Below are positions 9,087 to 63,878 of a stretch of DNA of 64,000 nt, in pieces (positions within the stretch are counted from its first letter, which is position 1; each line of letters opens with the position of its first letter). Origin of the DNA: a bacterium (GTDB lineage: Bacteria; UBP6; UBA1177); the NCBI GenBank assembly GCA_017963125.1, contig JAGCUA010000009.1:1-64000 (forward strand), given 5' to 3'. The position numbers and the translations under genes were made by a program. Under the pieces are notes generated by a model. It was not told where the DNA came from, searched no databases, and worked only from the letters and a program-made list of their open reading frames with translations.

Positions 9087-9114
9087 AACATACATTAAAG
9101 CAAATAATCAACAA
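9087..9114 (-). promoter_or_regulatory. Candidate promoter of the cas operon
   Basis: On the minus strand a TTGTTG (9114-9109) is followed after 16 bases by TATGTT (9092-9087), placed 37 bases before the cas6 ATG. The match to sigma-70 consensus is moderate, but the spacing matches other promoters in this window. Upstream bases 9115-9240 are AT-rich with no gene. Confidence 0.4.
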
Positions 9115-9295
9115 TTTTTCCGAAATTTTTGAAAAAATTTTTATACAACTGTTTCTTTTGAAAAAACTGCTGACAAAAACACGAATTTTCTGAACTCAGG
9201 CGATATATGCCGGAGTAGGTGAGTAAAATAAATCTTTTTGTGGTCAAAATTTTTGACCGCAAAATTGAGGGCTCCCTTCGACTAGCTCAGGGACC

Positions 9296-9380
9296 GTCAT
9301 TCTGAGCGTAGCGAAGAATCTGAGAGATCTTTCACATTCGTTCAAGATGGCGAGAGATGTTTCGCATTGCTCAACATGAC
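9296..9380 (+). repeat. Dispersed element A, copy 1 (extended)
   Basis: It begins GTCATTCTGAGCG and ends GCTCAACATGAC. The ends are imperfect inverted repeats (GTCAT-TGA-C). This copy carries a partial internal duplication of the second half. Other copies lie at 31010-31064, 39425-39479 and 46665-46720. Confidence 0.8.
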
Positions 9381-9407
9381 GGAATGCCTATTTTTTTCTG
9401 GTTTAAT

Positions 9408-9433
9408 GAGACGTGTCAGGAAACGCCTCTACC
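9408..9433 (-). repeat. ETSP palindrome, intergenic copy 1
   Basis: Bases GAGACGTGTC, then AG, then GAAACGCCTC plus TACC form a slightly degenerate inverted repeat. On the minus strand it reads GTAGAGGCGTTTC... and belongs to the same family as the coding copies at 41982, 45586, 45673 and 60601. Confidence 0.7.
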
Positions 9434-9685
9434 AATTCTCGGCTCCACTGAAATAGTCGCCACATCAAGGCTCCCCTGATGTAGGGGGAGCTGTCAAACG
9501 AGTTTGACTGAGGGGTCTGAGATGTCGCAGACAGAGGGGGCGGAGCTGCCGAAGGCTGAGGGGTCTGTGGTCATAGATGTTTCGCGTTGCTCAACATGAC
9601 GAACCCCGCCATCGTCACTTCGTGCCACTTCCTCCCCGAAAAGGGGCGGAAGAGTTTAGGCAAGCCGACCGCGCTACGACAAATA

Positions 9686-30901: not shown

Positions 30902-30958
30902 AGTAAATCTCCTGAAAATTATAAAAATTCATTTGTTATAGCACAAAAAAACGGGAGT

Positions 30959-30986
30959 TTTATAGTCAAGTGCGTCCGAAATGCAA
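30959..30986 (-). promoter_or_regulatory. Promoter of pheT-cdsA-dxr
   Basis: The minus strand has TTGCAT (30986-30981), 16 bases, then TATAAA (30964-30959), 58 bases before the pheT ATG. A second TGCTATAAC extended -10 lies closer to the gene at 30935-30943. Confidence 0.5.
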
Positions 30987-31009
30987 GAAACGGCCACAAA
31001 ATTTTAAGC

Positions 31010-31064
31010 GTCATTCTGAGCAAAGCGAAGAATCCTGAGATGTTTCACGTTCGTTCAACATGAC
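31010..31064 (+). repeat. Dispersed element A, copy 2
   Basis: It starts GTCATTCTGAGC, contains GCGAAGAATC and ends GTTCAACATGAC. It sits between the divergent pheT and ABC genes, directly upstream of the ABC promoter. Confidence 0.85.
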
Positions 31065-31076
31065 GAATATGCTTTT

Positions 31077-31104
31077 TTGCTCTTTTGATTCTTTTTACTA
31101 TAAT
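31077..31104 (+). promoter_or_regulatory. Promoter of the ABC exporter operon
   Basis: TTGCTC (31077-31082), 16 bases, then a perfect TATAAT (31099-31104), 33 bases before the GTG start. Confidence 0.55.
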
Positions 31105-31136
31105 CTCGGGTTTTTTGATTTTTAGGGAGGAAACGC

Positions 31137-33310: not shown

Positions 33311-33342
33311 CGTCACGTCGTTACGCCGTCACGACGTAACGT
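33311..33342. repeat. CGTNACGN octamer array 1
   Basis: Four head-to-tail octamers (CGTCACGT, CGTTACGC, CGTCACGA, CGTAACGT) fill the gap between the converging bcp and DEAD-box helicase genes. Arms ACGTCGT/ACGACGT can form a hairpin, and TTATTTTTT follows on the plus strand, so it may also end transcription. Confidence 0.8.
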
Positions 33343-39416: not shown

Positions 39417-39424
39417 GGTTGACC

Positions 39425-39479
39425 GTCATTCTGAGTGAAACGAAGAATCTCAGAGATGTTTCGCATAGCTCAACATGAC
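39425..39479 (+). repeat. Dispersed element A, copy 3
   Basis: It starts GTCATTCTGAGTG and ends GCTCAACATGAC, 8 bases after the preceding stop codon. The length is 55 bases, the same as copy 2. Confidence 0.85.
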
Positions 39480-46614: not shown

Positions 46615-46664
46615 TAAAATCAGAAAAAGCTGCCGCTGAATAACGGTCGCGCTCTCGAAATATC

Positions 46665-46720
46665 GTCATGTTGAACGAATGTGAAACATCTCTGAGATTC
46701 TTCGCTATGCTCAGAATGAC
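46665..46720 (-). repeat. Dispersed element A, copy 4 (inverted)
   Basis: It lies in opposite orientation to the other copies, from GTCATGTTGAAC to TCAGAATGAC. It lies in the gap between leuD and the AgmX/PglI-like gene. Confidence 0.85.
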
Positions 46721-46733
46721 GGCGAAAAATGCG

Positions 46734-46800
46734 GCGGCCGATCACCGCAAACAGGCGGCCGATCACCGCAAACAGGCGGCCGATCACCGCAAACAGGCGG
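46734..46800. repeat. Tandem repeat, 21-base unit, three copies plus a fragment
   Basis: The unit GCGGCCGATCACCGCAAACA(G) is present identically at 46734-46754, 46755-46775 and 46776-46796, with a short fourth start. Identical units point to recent expansion by slippage or unequal crossing. It does not encode anything believable on either strand. Confidence 0.85.
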
Positions 46801-46811
46801 CGAAACAAGGT

Positions 46812-46836
46812 GAGACGTTTCAGGAAACGTCTCTAC
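46812..46836 (-). repeat. ETSP palindrome, intergenic copy 2
   Basis: GAGACGTTTCAGG then AAACGTCTCTAC; on the minus strand it is one base different from the copy inside the LysM gene (60601-60625). Its end supplies the TAG stop of the AgmX/PglI-like gene (46835-46833). Confidence 0.8.
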
Positions 46837-49042: not shown

Positions 49043-49081
49043 TTTGCGTTTTTTTGTTTTTATTTAACTTTGGAGGGAAAA

Positions 49082-50203
49082 ATGAAAGATCCGAGAATCG
49101 CAAAGGTTGCGAAAAACCTTATCCGTTACAGTACGCATGTCCAGCCGGGCGAAAATGTCCTTATCGAGCTTAGAGACCACTGGCCGCTTCCTCTTGTTCA
49201 CGCTCTGATTGAAGAAGTCAAGGCTGTCGGCGGCAGAGCTTTCGTAAACTACACTGACTATCAGCTTCAGAGAAAGCTCCTTCTCAACGCAGATGACGAA
49301 TGGTTTGACGCGATGTGCGAAGTCGACCTTCTCCGCATGAAGAAGATGCAGGCTTACATTTCGATCAACGGCAGAAACAACAGCTACGAGCTTTCGGACG
49401 TTCCGGCTGATATCCAGAAGAAAAACGGCGAAAAATACCTTATCCCGGTTCATTTCAAACAGAGAGTAAACCACACGAAGTGGTGCATCCTCGCATACCC
49501 GAACCCGTCTTATGCACAGGCTTCGTCAATGAGTACGGAAGCTTTTGAAGATTTCTATTTCGATGTCTGCTCGCTTGACTACGCGAAAATGGACAAGGCG
49601 ATGGATCCTTTGAAGGAACTTATGGATAAAACCGACAAAGTCCGCCTGCTCGGTCCGGGAAGAACAGATCTCACTTTCTCTATCAAAGGGCTTCCGGGCA
49701 TCAAATGCTCCGGTCAGTGCAACATTCCGGACGGCGAAGTTTACTCCGCACCGGTCAAAGATTCAGTAAACGGCGTGATCGAATACAACACCCCGACAGT
49801 TTACCAGGGATCGAAGTTCGACAAAGTCATCCTCACTTTCGAAAAGGGCAAAATCGTCAAGATCGAAGGCAGCGATGTCGAGAAACTTGAGAAGATCTTC
49901 AACACCGACGAAGGTGCAAGGTATGTCGGCGAATTCGCGATCGGCGTAAACCCGTATGTCACGAAACCGATGGTCGATATCCTTTTCGACGAAAAGATCT
50001 GCGGATCGATCCACTTCACTCCGGGCGAATGCTACGAGGACTGCGACAACGGCAACGAGTCTGCGATCCACTGGGATCTCGTCATGATCCAGACTCCGGA
50101 ATACGGCGGCGGCGAAATCTATTTCGACGACGTTCTCATCAGAAAGGACGGCCGCTTTGTTCTGCCAGAACTTAAGGCTTTGAATCCGGAAAATCTTAAG
50201 TAA
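49082..50203 (+). CDS. Thermophilic-type metalloaminopeptidase, M29 family
   Basis: The 373-residue cytoplasmic aminopeptidase resembles AmpS/PepS (M29). Typical segments are the N-terminal KVAKNLIRYSTHVQPGENVLIE, the middle TDLTFSIKGLPGIKCSGQCNIPDGEVYSAPVKDSVNG with metal-ligand Glu, and the C-terminal GEFAIGVNPYVTKPM, GSIHFTPGECYEDC and AIHWDLVM. M29 enzymes use Glu/His/Asp and two divalent metals to remove N-terminal residues. GGAGG lies just before the ATG, and it is transcribed from a good promoter at 49015. A CGTNACGN array lies 26 bases after the stop. Confidence 0.9.
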   Translation: MKDPRIAKVAKNLIRYSTHVQPGENVLIELRDHWPLPLVHALIEEVKAVGGRAFVNYTDYQLQRKLLLNADDEWFDAMCEVDLLRMKKMQAYISINGRNNSYELSDVPADIQKKNGEKYLIPVHFKQRVNHTKWCILAYPNPSYAQASSMSTEAFEDFYFDVCSLDYAKMDKAMDPLKELMDKTDKVRLLGPGRTDLTFSIKGLPGIKCSGQCNIPDGEVYSAPVKDSVNGVIEYNTPTVYQGSKFDKVILTFEKGKIVKIEGSDVEKLEKIFNTDEGARYVGEFAIGVNPYVTKPMVDILFDEKICGSIHFTPGECYEDCDNGNESAIHWDLVMIQTPEYGGGEIYFDDVLIRKDGRFVLPELKALNPENLK

Positions 50204-50228: not shown

Positions 50229-50260
50229 CGTCACGGCGTCACGACGTAACGTCGTCACGA
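50229..50260. repeat. CGTNACGN octamer array 2
   Basis: The octamers CGTCACGG, CGTCACGA, CGTAACGT and CGTCACGA run in tandem 26 bases after the M29 stop. The central ACGACGT-A-ACGTCGT is a near-perfect palindrome. Confidence 0.85.
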
Positions 50261-56660: not shown

Positions 56661-57330
56661 TTCAAAAAAAGCAGTTGTTCTTTTCAGCGGCGGTCTCGAT
56701 TCGACGACTGTGCTGGTCTATGCGATGAAGCAGGGTTATGACGTTTATCCGCTCACTTTTTCTTACGGTCAGAGGCACGCTATCGAGATAAAACAGTCTG
56801 AAAGAACGCTTGAAAAATACGGGCTTACGCCTCGCCAGACGGTGTTTTCGATCGATCTTACGCCGTTTGTGAACTGTTCGCTCATTAACAAAAATCTGGA
56901 AGTTCCGGAATTCGCCGAAAACAGGATCCCTTCGACTTATGTGCCCTCGAGGAACATAATTTTTCTTTCTATTGCATCAGGTATGGCCGAGACTTTAGGG
57001 GCAGAAAAGATTTTTATCGGAGTCAATTCTGTCGATTATTCAGGCTATCCCGACTGCCGTCCCGAATTTATCGATGCTTTCAACAAAACGATTGCCGTCG
57101 GCACGAAACAGGGTGTCGAAAGCGGAATAAAAGTCGAGGCACCGATCCTGAATATGTCGAAAAAAGAGATAATCGAGCTCGGAATGTCGCTCGGAGTCGA
57201 CTATTCTCTCACACACAGCTGCTATAATCCGACTCCCTACGGGCTTTCATGCGGAGTCTGCGACAGCTGCCGCCTTCGTCTTGAAGGTTTCAGGCAGGCA
57301 GGATTTGAAGATCCTTTGAAATATCGTTAA
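56653..57330 (+). CDS. queC: 7-cyano-7-deazaguanine synthase (preQ0 synthase)
   Basis: QueC turns 7-carboxy-7-deazaguanine into preQ0 using ATP and ammonia, for queuosine (or archaeosine-like) tRNA modification. The 225-residue protein has the PP-loop ATP pyrophosphatase motif VVLFSGGLDSTTVLVYAMKQG at the N-terminus. Zinc-binding Cys lie near the C-terminus: CYNPTPYGLSCGVCDSCRLR (CX9CX2CX2C pattern). queD, queE and queF are not in the window. The ATG overlaps the TonB-like gene by 8 bases. A CGTNACGN array follows 22 bases after the stop. Confidence 0.95.
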   Translation: MNNSKKAVVLFSGGLDSTTVLVYAMKQGYDVYPLTFSYGQRHAIEIKQSERTLEKYGLTPRQTVFSIDLTPFVNCSLINKNLEVPEFAENRIPSTYVPSRNIIFLSIASGMAETLGAEKIFIGVNSVDYSGYPDCRPEFIDAFNKTIAVGTKQGVESGIKVEAPILNMSKKEIIELGMSLGVDYSLTHSCYNPTPYGLSCGVCDSCRLRLEGFRQAGFEDPLKYR

Positions 57331-57351
57331 TGCCGCCGCGCGCATTTTTGA

Positions 57352-57383
57352 CGTTACGTCGTCACGTCGTTTCGGCGTTACGA
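57352..57383. repeat. CGTNACGN octamer array 3
   Basis: CGTTACGT, CGTCACGT, CGTTTCGG and CGTTACGA follow queC by 22 bases. Confidence 0.8.
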
Positions 57384-57406
57384 TGAAAGTGGCGCCGCAA
57401 CAAAAC

Positions 57407-57434
57407 TTGTTTTATTTCCGATTTTATTTAAACT
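57407..57434 (+). promoter_or_regulatory. Promoter of the acidic lipoprotein gene
   Basis: TTGTTT (57407-57412), 16 bases, then TAAACT (57429-57434), 32 bases before the ATG. The -10 sequence is identical to that of the M29 promoter. Confidence 0.5.
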
Positions 57435-57466
57435 CCCGCGGTGTTGACCTTTTTTAGGAGGAAAAA

Positions 57467-58588
57467 ATGAAAAAAATTTGGTTGGCTATTTTAACAATTG
57501 CATGTCTCTTAGTGCTTTCAAGCTGCGGCGGTGACGATAAAAAACCGGCGAAAGCGGAAGATCCGGATTCAGAACAGGAAGAGACCTCGGACGCTGAACC
57601 GGCTGAAGATCCGACTGACACGGAAGAAGAACCGGCTGAACAGCCTGATGAAAACACGACTCCCGAGAATTTCAATCCTGAAAATCCGGGTTACTTCGTT
57701 GAATTTATGATCATTGACGTAAACATGGCAAACCAGCCTCAGACGATGGCGATAGGCTATTTCATGAAGGCTGCCCGCGAAGATCTCAATCCGCACAGTT
57801 TTGATGAATCGACGCTTGATACCTGCACTTTCGGGGAGGCTGTCGAAAGCGTTCCTCAGTGTGCTTCCAAAGATGACTGTGCTCCGGAACAGGATTGTGT
57901 TCCTGAATACGACGACAACGGCAATGCGTATCCGAATTCAGAGCACTGCGAAACGCTCGGCAGAGAGTCGCTTGATGTCGGTCCTGTTATGATCTCAGGC
58001 TTCAACGGCGGTCCCTATCAGTTTGCTTTCGAGCCCGGCGATCAGGCTTACAAACTTAACGGAACTGGAGACGGTTCAATCCCCGGCGACATGATCGCTT
58101 ACGGTGTCGACTACACGATCAGCGGCGAAAACATGCTTCCTGAGGATCTTACTTCTCTTTCGGCGACCTTCACGATGCCGCCTTCATTTGCTATTTCGGA
58201 ACCTGCTCCGCAGACGAATACGGCCGGCGGTTTCGGCGATATCATCAACGTTACTCCGGGTGAGCCCCTTACGATCAAATGGGCCGGAAACAACGGATTC
58301 GGATATATCGATGTCAATTTTGTCGTAATGAAGAGCCTTATGGAGCAGGTATCGATCACCTGCAGAATGATCGATGACGGCGAATTCACGATCCCGGCTG
58401 AGTATACGAGCGAGATGCAGCTTTCGCAGGGCGGTGGTGATTCAGGCAACCCGTTCGGCGATATGCTCGGTATGATGAACATAATCACCGTAAACCGCCA
58501 TGTCGAGTCTCCGATCACCGGCAAAGGGATCACGGCTGGATCATTCTCGGCTGAGCAGATGGTCCTTTACACACTCGGCAACAACTAA
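57467..58588 (+). CDS. Acidic lipoprotein of unknown function
   Basis: The 373-residue protein has a signal peptide ending VLSSC (about Cys 20) and an acidic Pro/Glu/Asp linker (about 25-75). A beta-rich region follows, with a Cys-containing loop (CASKDDCAPEQDCVPEYDDNG), NTAGGFGDIINVTPGEPLTIKWAGNNG and an Ig-like pattern at the end. No family was recognised. TAGGAGG precedes the ATG and a promoter lies at 57407. Confidence 0.7.
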   Translation: MKKIWLAILTIACLLVLSSCGGDDKKPAKAEDPDSEQEETSDAEPAEDPTDTEEEPAEQPDENTTPENFNPENPGYFVEFMIIDVNMANQPQTMAIGYFMKAAREDLNPHSFDESTLDTCTFGEAVESVPQCASKDDCAPEQDCVPEYDDNGNAYPNSEHCETLGRESLDVGPVMISGFNGGPYQFAFEPGDQAYKLNGTGDGSIPGDMIAYGVDYTISGENMLPEDLTSLSATFTMPPSFAISEPAPQTNTAGGFGDIINVTPGEPLTIKWAGNNGFGYIDVNFVVMKSLMEQVSITCRMIDDGEFTIPAEYTSEMQLSQGGGDSGNPFGDMLGMMNIITVNRHVESPITGKGITAGSFSAEQMVLYTLGNN

Positions 58589-58640
58589 TGCTTTCGGTCA
58601 GATAACGTCTTTTAATCACTGAATATTTTCTCAAAACATC

Positions 58641-59192
58641 ATGAAAACTGAAATCTTAAGGATCTCGGAAGATCTCTATCTGAAGTCGCTTGAACTCGAT
58701 GATGCGGAACACATTTTCAAAGCGGTCGATTCTCAGCGTGAATATCTCGGCGAATGGCTTCCGTTCGTCGAATTTACGAAAAGCGTTAAAGATTCCCTCG
58801 ATTACGTCAATTCAGTCGTGACAATGCCTGAAGAATGCAAGGAATGGCAGTTCGCTGTTTTCTGCGGCGGCTGTTTTGCGGGGCTTGCCGGATTCAAAGG
58901 AACAGACAGGCTCAACCGGAAAAGCGAGATCGGCTACTGGCTCCGCGAAGAGTTTCAGGGCCGCGGCATAATGACTGAATCGGTGCGCGCTTTGATAAAT
59001 TTCGGCTTTTCGGAGATCGATCTCAACAGAATCCAGATAAAATGCGCTCCCGAAAATCTCAAAAGCAACAAGATCCCGCAAAGACTCGGATTTACCCTTG
59101 AAGGGATCGAACGCGACAGCGAATTTGTGCGGGAAGGCGTTTTTCGTGACGCCAATGTCTGGAGTCTAATCAAAAAAGACGTGACACCGTGA
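58641..59192 (+). CDS. GNAT-family N-acetyltransferase (RimJ/RimL-like)
   Basis: The 183-residue cytoplasmic protein resembles RimJ/RimL and SpeG-type acetyltransferases, which modify the N-terminus of ribosomal proteins or small amines. Motif A is EIGYWLREEFQGRGIMTESVRALINFGF (acetyl-CoA loop R-G-x-x-T) and the later RIQIKCAPENLKSNKIPQRLGFTLEG is typical. The stop lies inside octamer array 4, so its last residues (KDVTP) are partly array-encoded. The substrate is not known. Confidence 0.85.
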   Translation: MKTEILRISEDLYLKSLELDDAEHIFKAVDSQREYLGEWLPFVEFTKSVKDSLDYVNSVVTMPEECKEWQFAVFCGGCFAGLAGFKGTDRLNRKSEIGYWLREEFQGRGIMTESVRALINFGFSEIDLNRIQIKCAPENLKSNKIPQRLGFTLEGIERDSEFVREGVFRDANVWSLIKKDVTP

Positions 59193-59248
59193 CGTCGTGC
59201 CGTCGTAACATTAATTAGTAACGTCGTTACGTCGTGCCGTCGTTACGT
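59180..59248. repeat. CGTNACGN octamer array 4 with two blocks
   Basis: Four octamers (59180-59211: CGTGACAC, CGTGACGT, CGTGCCGT, CGTAACAT), a short TA-rich gap and then CGTTACGT, CGTGCCGT and CGTTACGT (59225-59248). It spans the facing 3' ends of the GNAT and lipA genes and is translated at the end of both. Confidence 0.85.
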
Positions 59249-60095
59249 TTTCAATCATATTCTGGTGGATCTCTTTTGCATTGAAGGAGCTTCTGACGAA
59301 TCTGCCTGAATAAACTTCTTTGAAACCGATAGAAAGTCCGTAGTCGCGAAGTGCGTCAAATTCAGCCTGAGTGTAGTCCTTTTCGACCGGGATGTGCTGC
59401 AATGACGGGCGGAAATACTGCCCGATCGTCATTATGTCGCATCCGACATCGCGGAGATCGCGCATCAGAGCATGCACTTCATCGACTGTTTCGCCGACAC
59501 CGAGCATTATGCCAGACTTCGTGATGAAACCTTTGCGCTTCATGTAGCAGAGAACGTCAAGCGAACGTTTGTAGTCAGCCTGCGGACGAACTTTCGGATA
59601 GAGTGAGCAGATCGTCTCGACATTGTGGTTGAAAACGTCTATCGGCGAATCGGCAACGATATCGAGATTTTCCTTTATTCCGAGAAAATCTGGAGTCAGG
59701 ACTTCGACAAGAGTTTCAGGAGATAACTCTTTGACTTTTTTAACAGTTTCGGCGAAATGAGCTGCTCCGCAGTCGGGCAGGTCGTCTCTTGTGACCGAGG
59801 TTATTACTGTGTAAAGCAAACCTAAATCTTTTACGGCAAGCGCAAGGTTTTCTGGCTCATTCGGATCGGGAAGGGGAATATTTTCGTTGTGGACGATGTT
59901 GCAGAAGCGGCAGTTGCGGGTGCAGCTGTTACCTAAGATCAGGAAAGTCGCCGTTCTTTTCTTGAAGCAGTCGCCGATATTCGGACAGTGCGCCGATTCG
60001 CAGACTGAATGAAGATGGTGCAGACGCAGGATCTTCTTCATTTCGGCAACGAAAGGGGATTTGAAAGTCGATTTTTTGAGCATTTCTTCAGCCAT
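59211..60095 (-). CDS. lipA: Lipoyl synthase
   Basis: LipA inserts two sulfurs into octanoyl groups on carrier domains, by radical SAM chemistry. The auxiliary cluster CX4CX5C is in SVCESAHCPNIGDCF and the radical SAM CX3CX2C in SCTRNCRFCNI. The C-terminal RSSFNAKE contains the conserved Ser that ligates the auxiliary cluster. The ATG at 60095 was chosen because GAGG lies 6 bases upstream; an in-frame ATG at 60107 lacks one. After the core, the last 11 residues (VTTARRNDVTN) are encoded by the octamer array, probably an added tail. Confidence 0.95.
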   Translation of the reverse strand: MAEEMLKKSTFKSPFVAEMKKILRLHHLHSVCESAHCPNIGDCFKKRTATFLILGNSCTRNCRFCNIVHNENIPLPDPNEPENLALAVKDLGLLYTVITSVTRDDLPDCGAAHFAETVKKVKELSPETLVEVLTPDFLGIKENLDIVADSPIDVFNHNVETICSLYPKVRPQADYKRSLDVLCYMKRKGFITKSGIMLGVGETVDEVHALMRDLRDVGCDIMTIGQYFRPSLQHIPVEKDYTQAEFDALRDYGLSIGFKEVYSGRFVRSSFNAKEIHQNMIENVTTARRNDVTN

Positions 60096-60128
60096 GACAA
60101 GCCTCATTGAACATTCATAAAACGCGGG

Positions 60129-63798: not shown

Positions 63799-63830
63799 CG
63801 TTATACCGTTATTCCGTTATAACGTTATTC
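63799..63830. repeat. Diverged octamer array 5
   Basis: CGTTATAC, CGTTATTC, CGTTATAA and CGTTATTC run in tandem with the same 8-base period as the CGTNACGN arrays, but the second half of the unit differs. It lies 49 bases 3' of the partial beta-barrel gene. Confidence 0.65.
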
Positions 63831-63878
63831 CGACGGCGCGAATCGGTAATTACGATAATAACGATAAAGAAAAAAGGA

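Follow-up and report, generated by a model that had tools for sequence, protein, structure and literature searches.

A palindromic octamer array at the converging ends of lipA and an acetyltransferase gene as a probable copy of a genus-restricted family of small dispersed elements

Towards the end of the window, by which we mean the whole 64,000-nucleotide stretch of contig JAGCUA010000009.1 that was analysed here, a lipoyl synthase gene and an acetyltransferase gene converge on an array with a period of eight bases, and both of their reading frames end inside it. The features at this locus are as follows.

58641 to 59192, plus strand: GNAT acetyltransferase gene, 183 aa, Pfam Acetyltransf_3, C-terminus DVTP from block A
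59174 to 59253: the whole palindromic double array in the lipA/GNAT gap, two blocks flanking a TTAATTA linker
59180 to 59206, plus strand: block A, period 8, holding the GNAT stop codon (59190-59192)
59217 to 59248, minus strand: block B, period 8, of which 59246-59217 is read as VTTARRNDVT of LipA
59211 to 60107, minus strand: lipA, lipoyl synthase, 298 aa, NCBIfam lipA TIGR00510, 344.9 bits

The period-8 array proper occupies 59180-59248, as blocks at 59180-59206 and 59217-59248 with the TTAATTA linker between them. As the first-pass annotation of this DNA had claimed, the LipA residues VTTARRNDVT are the minus-strand translation of the array (V to T from 59246-59217) and the LipA stop codon, TAA at 59213-59211, is supplied by the linker, the protein ending E-N-V-T-T-A-R-R-N-D-V-T-N-stop. 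Its claim that the facing gene stops within the array was borne out as well: the GNAT protein ends K-K-D-V-T-P, followed by a TGA at 59190-59192 within block A. The copy at this site is irregular, consisting of two decayed blocks that form imperfect inverted repeats without GC arms, with 46 of the 80 positions of 59174-59253 equal to their reverse complement. When 59166-59256 was folded as RNA, z was -3.2 for the plus strand and -1.1 for the minus strand, the lipA side. The pattern ACGNNGTNACGNNGTNACG, with at most one mismatch, matches 19 times in the window, whereas 100 dinucleotide shuffles average 0.06; the 19 matches count overlapping positions and both strands within four arrays.

The genomes of the genus that we compared are 15 ruminant-gut MAGs of 59-99% completeness, and the nearest relatives of this LipA (94-98%), with a few more at 85-97%, likewise come from the ruminant gut. 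LipA is present in all 15 and carries an array-derived tail in six, each of which has the array, partly decayed, in its DNA: the tail is NVTTARRNDVTN in G000 (the genome of the window) and G004, NVTASRRNNVAN in G011, NVTASRHNDVTN in G003 and NVTLARRNDETK in G008 and G010. In the remaining nine genomes LipA extends 4-9 residues past HQ.M as opposed to 14, and is therefore 5-10 residues shorter, with tails that are unrelated to the array tail. In G013 the protein ends RNIEISK, read in place from an octamer array of a second type, and G005 and G006 have the same core in common in the lipA gap. A relative with the same LipA tail but no octamer array, which would speak for a tail older than the array, was sought in the 15 genomes and none was seen. 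Outside the genus, the RSSxxA motif was found, as searched, in 18 of 21 lipA loci, where the protein ends 4-16 residues past it compared to 21 in the window. That the tail occurs only in the six array-bearing genomes, while nine relatives have unrelated and shorter ones, supports a late entry, in which the array would have arrived after lipA was formed and displaced the LipA stop. The first-pass annotation had taken the window's sequence by itself to show that the array came later, which it does not do; for LipA, the relatives do. On the LipA DNA tree, which is weakly resolved, the array label amounts to three changes.

The TIGR00510 profile match on LipA reaches residue 286 of 298. In an AlphaFold2 model, pLDDT is 85-98 over residues 81-270 and falls to 62, 58 and 49 in the last three blocks (271-297), with a low-confidence helix at 276-296. 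The structure prediction, which had been suggested as a check, is thus informative to a limited degree: confidence already drops ahead of the residues that come from the array, and the helix modelled at the end is itself of low confidence, so that it would tell us little about the tail except that this appears to lie outside the confident fold. We infer that the tail is a tolerated by-product without function.

On the facing side, a GNAT end was located at nine of the 15 lipA loci of the genus, with the tails DVTP (four loci), DINS (G003), DINSQRCYVVTP (G011), DSESRDYENQ (G006) and KKEF or KKEL (G005 and G013). The stop is usually shifted by about two residues (KKDVTP or KKDINS versus KKEF or KKEL), and the larger shifts are +10 in G011 (KKDINSQRCYVVTP) and +8 in G006 (KRDSESRDYENQ), the latter extension apparently deriving from another core type. 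Because the GNAT end is seen at nine loci of the 15, its ancestral stop is less certain, and of the earlier proposal that the repeat entered after the genes had formed and moved both stop codons, it is the LipA half that is better supported.

Related elements lie elsewhere in the window.

33311 to 33341: core of four CGTNACG heptamers filling a 35-bp convergent gap
50229 to 50259: four heptamers flanked by complementary GC arms, downstream of 49070-50203
57345 to 57388: element between GC arms, directly after the gene ending at 57330, with the same core in G003 and G008
63799 to 63832: a second type of core, (CGDDATHH)4-CG, CGTTATACCGTTATTCCGTTATAACGTTATTCCG, followed by a GC-rich stretch

The octamer array, which the first-pass annotation took as a thing in itself, is real, yet it is one copy of a genus-wide family of elements and no isolated microsatellite. 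Cores of two types recur, one of 34 bp built from four 8-bp modules, (CG-DD-AT-HH)4-CG, and one of 31 bp with four CGTNACG heptamers one base apart. In 741 kb from nine species, comprising partly orthologous stretches, runs of one to five CGnnATnn modules number 4239, 28, 6, 16 and 4, and three permuted controls never rise above two modules; for CGTnACG, runs of one to four number 164, 8, 0 and 3. Within the modules, counted over both strands of 69 distinct arrays, 17 of the 1104 letters at positions 3-4 are C; the free positions nearly lack C on one side and G on the other. In intergenic DNA, CG recurs at lags of 8, 16 and 24 with 2.39-, 2.09- and 1.89-fold frequency, lags 3 and 21 being raised too (2.23 and 1.78), and in coding DNA the value at lag 8 is 0.87. 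Between copies, the commonest match of the free letters is 4 of 16 and the best 15 of 16, both orientations counted. What defines the core is a grammar with no fixed sequence: four modules with fixed CG and AT and, elsewhere, mostly the freedom of three letters. We recognised this grammar by inspection, and the data used to test it overlap in part with those in which it was seen; the more independent checks are the free-letter bias, the search of the phylum and the peak in run length.

The sequences around the cores are also structured, many cores being flanked by GC-rich arms able to pair with one another. A flank stem of at least 7 bp is found in 42 of 65 elements, compared to 25% when flanks are swapped between elements and 2.5% when they are shuffled, and copies without arms also occur. 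With their flanks, the elements fold below shuffles (mean z -2.3, with 25 of the 45 folded, from the 65, below -2), and the core alone has a mean z of -1.8 versus dinucleotide shuffles (45 cores). A hairpin formed by the core itself was considered and rejected, the complementarity of its variable letters being below shuffles at six of seven centres and equal to them at one. An identical 31-bp core stands at four loci in three genomes (L173, L292, L293 and L294). L173 and L293 may be an orthologous pair; the flanks of L292 and L294 differ from those of the other loci. An Rfam search of the window at gathering thresholds gave no match. Separately, in contig C15 of G005 the gap between ORFs G005#65 and G005#66 holds an apparent period-9 array of about four NNNTAARGA units with GC-rich stretches on either side; this is possibly a third core type, and the same site has an octamer core in G013.

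The family is confined to the genus among the genomes searched. The 34-bp core was found in 15 of 15 genus genomes and the heptamer core, allowing one mismatch, in 12 of 15, and neither occurs in the 13 further genomes of the phylum that were searched. Each type has 28 places in G000, and the number per genome, counted in full, spans 4-56 for one core type and 0-33 for the other. Reversed-pattern controls gave none in the genus for either core and two per strand in G027, a non-genus genome, for the 34-bp core.

Genes were called with a simple ORF script, so the gap classes that follow, taken from the 741 kb, may include miscalls. Arrays are present in 10 of 48 convergent gaps of at least 15 bp, compared to 10 of 226 tandem and 5 of 79 divergent ones (Fisher p = 0.0006). 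Of the 77 cores retrieved from three genomes, those of tonB left out, 53 have a 3' end as their nearest ORF end (22 of 34 in G000, 16 of 21 in G004 and 15 of 22 in G005), a modest preference, and a stop codon lies within the core in nine. Context counts based on runs (convergent 27, tandem 16, divergent 5, inside an ORF 5) were set aside, several runs falling in one gap. Two ORFs with apparent arrays were likewise set aside by eye: that at L175 is RimO-like and likely starts after the array, and that at L180 looks spurious.

Inside genes, the elements are seen in the flexible linker of TonB. In G000 the gene lies at C65:191753-192511 (L266) and has a TonB_C domain, with orthologues at L267-L280. 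Read as open frames, in-frame copies of the element, of species-specific core types, contribute to the TonB linker in 12 of the 15 genus genomes; the DNA that forms intergenic elements thus also supplies a large part of the linker of a protein. In 13 of 15 linkers, at least three CG follow one another at a spacing of eight, but 12 are counted since G007 has a single run without such a peptide; there is likewise just one run in G014, and Ns mask part of G002. By reading, the repeated units measure 51 bp in G013 and 57 bp in G010. Ordinary linkers are present in G001, G007 and G009 despite 5, 4 and 4 cores elsewhere in their genomes. A peptide search of G000 for further translated copies returned five matches: TonB accounts for three, and the other two are weak and fall on intergenic elements, no protein besides TonB being hit. 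The likeness between the TonB peptide DDVTTERRDDE of G000 and the LipA tail is explained by both being read from modules of the same type.

Orthologous sites are empty, occupied or filled with different cores. This is the case for the eight orthologous gaps that have an array in at least one of nine species, four of which cover just three or four species. At the 50229 site, compared in seven species, G000 and G010 have a core in common and each of the other five holds something different. A divergent gap is empty in G005 and G006 and 133 bp longer in G013, where the element sits in what, by eye, resembles a terminator hairpin. In one convergent pair the ORFs of G006, which is empty, overlap by 4 nt, and G005 and G013 are occupied and differ by exactly 16 bp; at lipA, the arrays of G000 and G004 are also 16 bp apart in length, that is, by two octamers. 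At the window's 46615 site, G004 and G010 have an identical core, G013 part of an array and G000 a remnant; nothing is present in G005 and G006, and G003 is almost empty. The gap at 46615-46834 also contains a 21-bp tandem repeat (GGCGGCCGATCACCGCAAACA, 3.3 copies) and another dispersed repeat. By eye, one empty/occupied pair has TAA as a possible target-site duplication and none is evident at two others. The polarity of the LipA change appears settled by the relatives, and gain and loss remain unpolarised at most intergenic sites, where the direction of change would be our assumption. Sites that are empty, occupied or exchanged nevertheless make turnover and stop-codon capture traceable over 15 related genomes.

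Some of this turnover may have occurred by exchange between species. G000 and G004 are 93-100% identical per 200 bp over a tract at 57600-59600 (starting near 57440), compared with 69-94% in the other bins examined; because the locus lies inside it, the two copies of the lipA array were probably exchanged as a block rather than gained separately. The start of this probable recombination tract is about 50 bp beyond the 57345 element. Around that element itself, identity per 60 columns is 93-100% to G008 (57286-57465) and 90-100% to G003 (57321-57440), whereas the gene downstream of it is just 52-88% identical, which suggests that a small tract centred on the element was exchanged by recombination.

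We therefore consider it likely that the array between lipA and the GNAT gene is a copy of a genus-restricted family of small, dispersed, palindromic and non-autonomous elements similar to REPs or RPEs. In the mechanism that we propose, spread would be transposition-like: at intergenic sites, copies would appear, disappear and pass from one species to another, preferentially where convergent genes meet, and a copy that landed on a stop codon would cause the gene to read into it. Such stop capture would have given LipA its last ~10 residues and GNAT its last few, presuming that these frames are translated in the cell, and in-frame copies in the tolerant TonB linker would have been kept and, in several species, multiplied as units of 51-57 bp. 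Counting against a mobile element are the finding of Y1_Tnp, the only transposase family searched, in just 1 of 15 genomes, the unclear target-site duplications, the modest 3' preference, the irregular form of the lipA copy, and free letters that diverge more widely between copies than one would usually expect of a transposon that had spread recently.

RPEs are described as small dispersed palindromes of 105-146 bp (PMC2229807) that are found both between genes and translated in frame inside conserved proteins (PMC2229807; PMC10969869), and small repeats that invade coding sequences are known in Rickettsia, Wolbachia and some other groups (PMC2229807). The elements here, compared by description with RPEs, are likewise small, dispersed, palindromic and both intergenic and in frame, and their in-frame sequence is absent from orthologues without the element (present, as open reading, in TonB of 12 of 15 genomes and LipA of 6 of 15). 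They differ in having a repeated unit of ~31-65 bp with a degenerate four-module core, in their translated sites, which are a pair of C-termini and the TonB linker, and in the phylum in which they occur. REPs of the GTAG and CGTC super-families are many-copy small palindromes that lie mostly downstream of coding regions, with some inside genes, and CGTC REPs have been reported without a dedicated RAYT transposase (PMC3733652). The present elements also lie mostly downstream of genes (10 of 48 convergent gaps; 53 of 77 cores nearest a 3' end), but have a modular degenerate core. In the flanks of the 34-bp core type, no fixed REP tag was found: GTAG occurs within 45 nt in 7 of 65, at most once per position, and CGTC in 21 of 65, at most four times at one position. 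RAYT-type Y1_Tnp (PF01797) was detected in G013 among the 15 genus genomes, with none in G000, compared to 5 of 14 control genomes. On the absent tag and the rarity of the transposase, we rejected membership in the REP/RAYT system. MITEs are expected to have terminal inverted repeats and target-site duplications; here, flank stems of at least 7 bp are present in 42 of 65 elements beside copies that lack arms, and a TAA duplication is possible at one of three sites. Prokaryotic satellites such as the octamer-derived family of Mesorhizobium ciceri are short-period tandem repeats scattered in the genome (PMC6749651); here, in contrast, run length peaks at four modules and only the TonB copies resemble a minisatellite. 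A minisatellite of variable unit number was rejected on that peak in 741 kb, the exceptions being the 16-bp differences at two sites and the TonB units. A literature search found no paper on these elements, although this does not prove that there is none. The family looks like an independent case of small repeats invading coding sequence, in an uncultured ruminant-gut lineage.

A different possibility, which we regard as rather unlikely, is that the elements are functional sites under selection, bound by a protein that makes contact with CG and AT at 4-bp intervals and acts, for instance, in the nucleoid, in segregation or in recombination, with the copies at gene ends being tolerated read-through sites. 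The run lengths that peak at four modules, the near-exclusion of C at module positions 3-4, the dyad symmetry of the core and the way in which orthologous sites keep the grammar with different letters would all fit such a site. Harder to reconcile with it are the rate at which orthologous sites turn over, some being wholly empty in close relatives, and the spread in counts per genome (4-56 and 0-33 for the two core types, at completeness of 59-99%). Room is left for this reading by the single genome in 15 with a Y1 transposase, the unclear target duplications and the preferred number of modules. It is tempting to speculate, with no greater confidence, that the four-module core might be the recognition site of a genus-specific machinery that reads CG and AT at fixed 4-bp steps, accepts any of three letters at the remaining positions, and copies or exchanges cores between sites and species. 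If so, each genome would have its own flavour of core, and the machinery would even rebuild the TonB linker and the LipA tail.

Somewhat more doubtful is the idea that the arrays are transcription terminators or RNA 3'-end hairpins, acting in both directions between convergent genes. The enrichment in convergent gaps and the folding of elements with flanks below shuffles (mean z -2.3) agree with it, as does the lipA copy of G004, which by eye is an inverted repeat followed by CTTTTTT (z -3.7, but with other pairing). However, a T-run of at least five within 45 nt accompanies just 13 (plus) or 14 (minus) of 65 elements, the variable letters of the core are no more complementary than in shuffles (0.41 versus 0.45 at the central CG), and some copies lie in divergent gaps and inside tonB. 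At the lipA array, the consensus scan finds no terminator and the minus-strand fold, that of lipA, is ordinary (z -1.1), though the plus-strand fold is not (z -3.2), and we rejected that role for it. Least probable is a simple microsatellite that arose at each site independently through replication slippage of an 8-bp unit, since the 16-bp differences at lipA (G000 versus G004) and in one convergent gap (G005 versus G013), the slightly greater likeness of neighbouring octamers than in shuffles (0.516 versus 0.448) and the varying number of TonB units are outweighed by run lengths that peak at four modules with no steady fall, by neighbouring modules that differ at about half of their free letters, by the paired arms and by identical cores at loci with different flanks.

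Apart from the elements described here, the window contains a second dispersed intergenic repeat, at 9096-9685, 30902-31136 and 39417-39449, with a motif like GTCATTCTGAGC...GAAGAATC.
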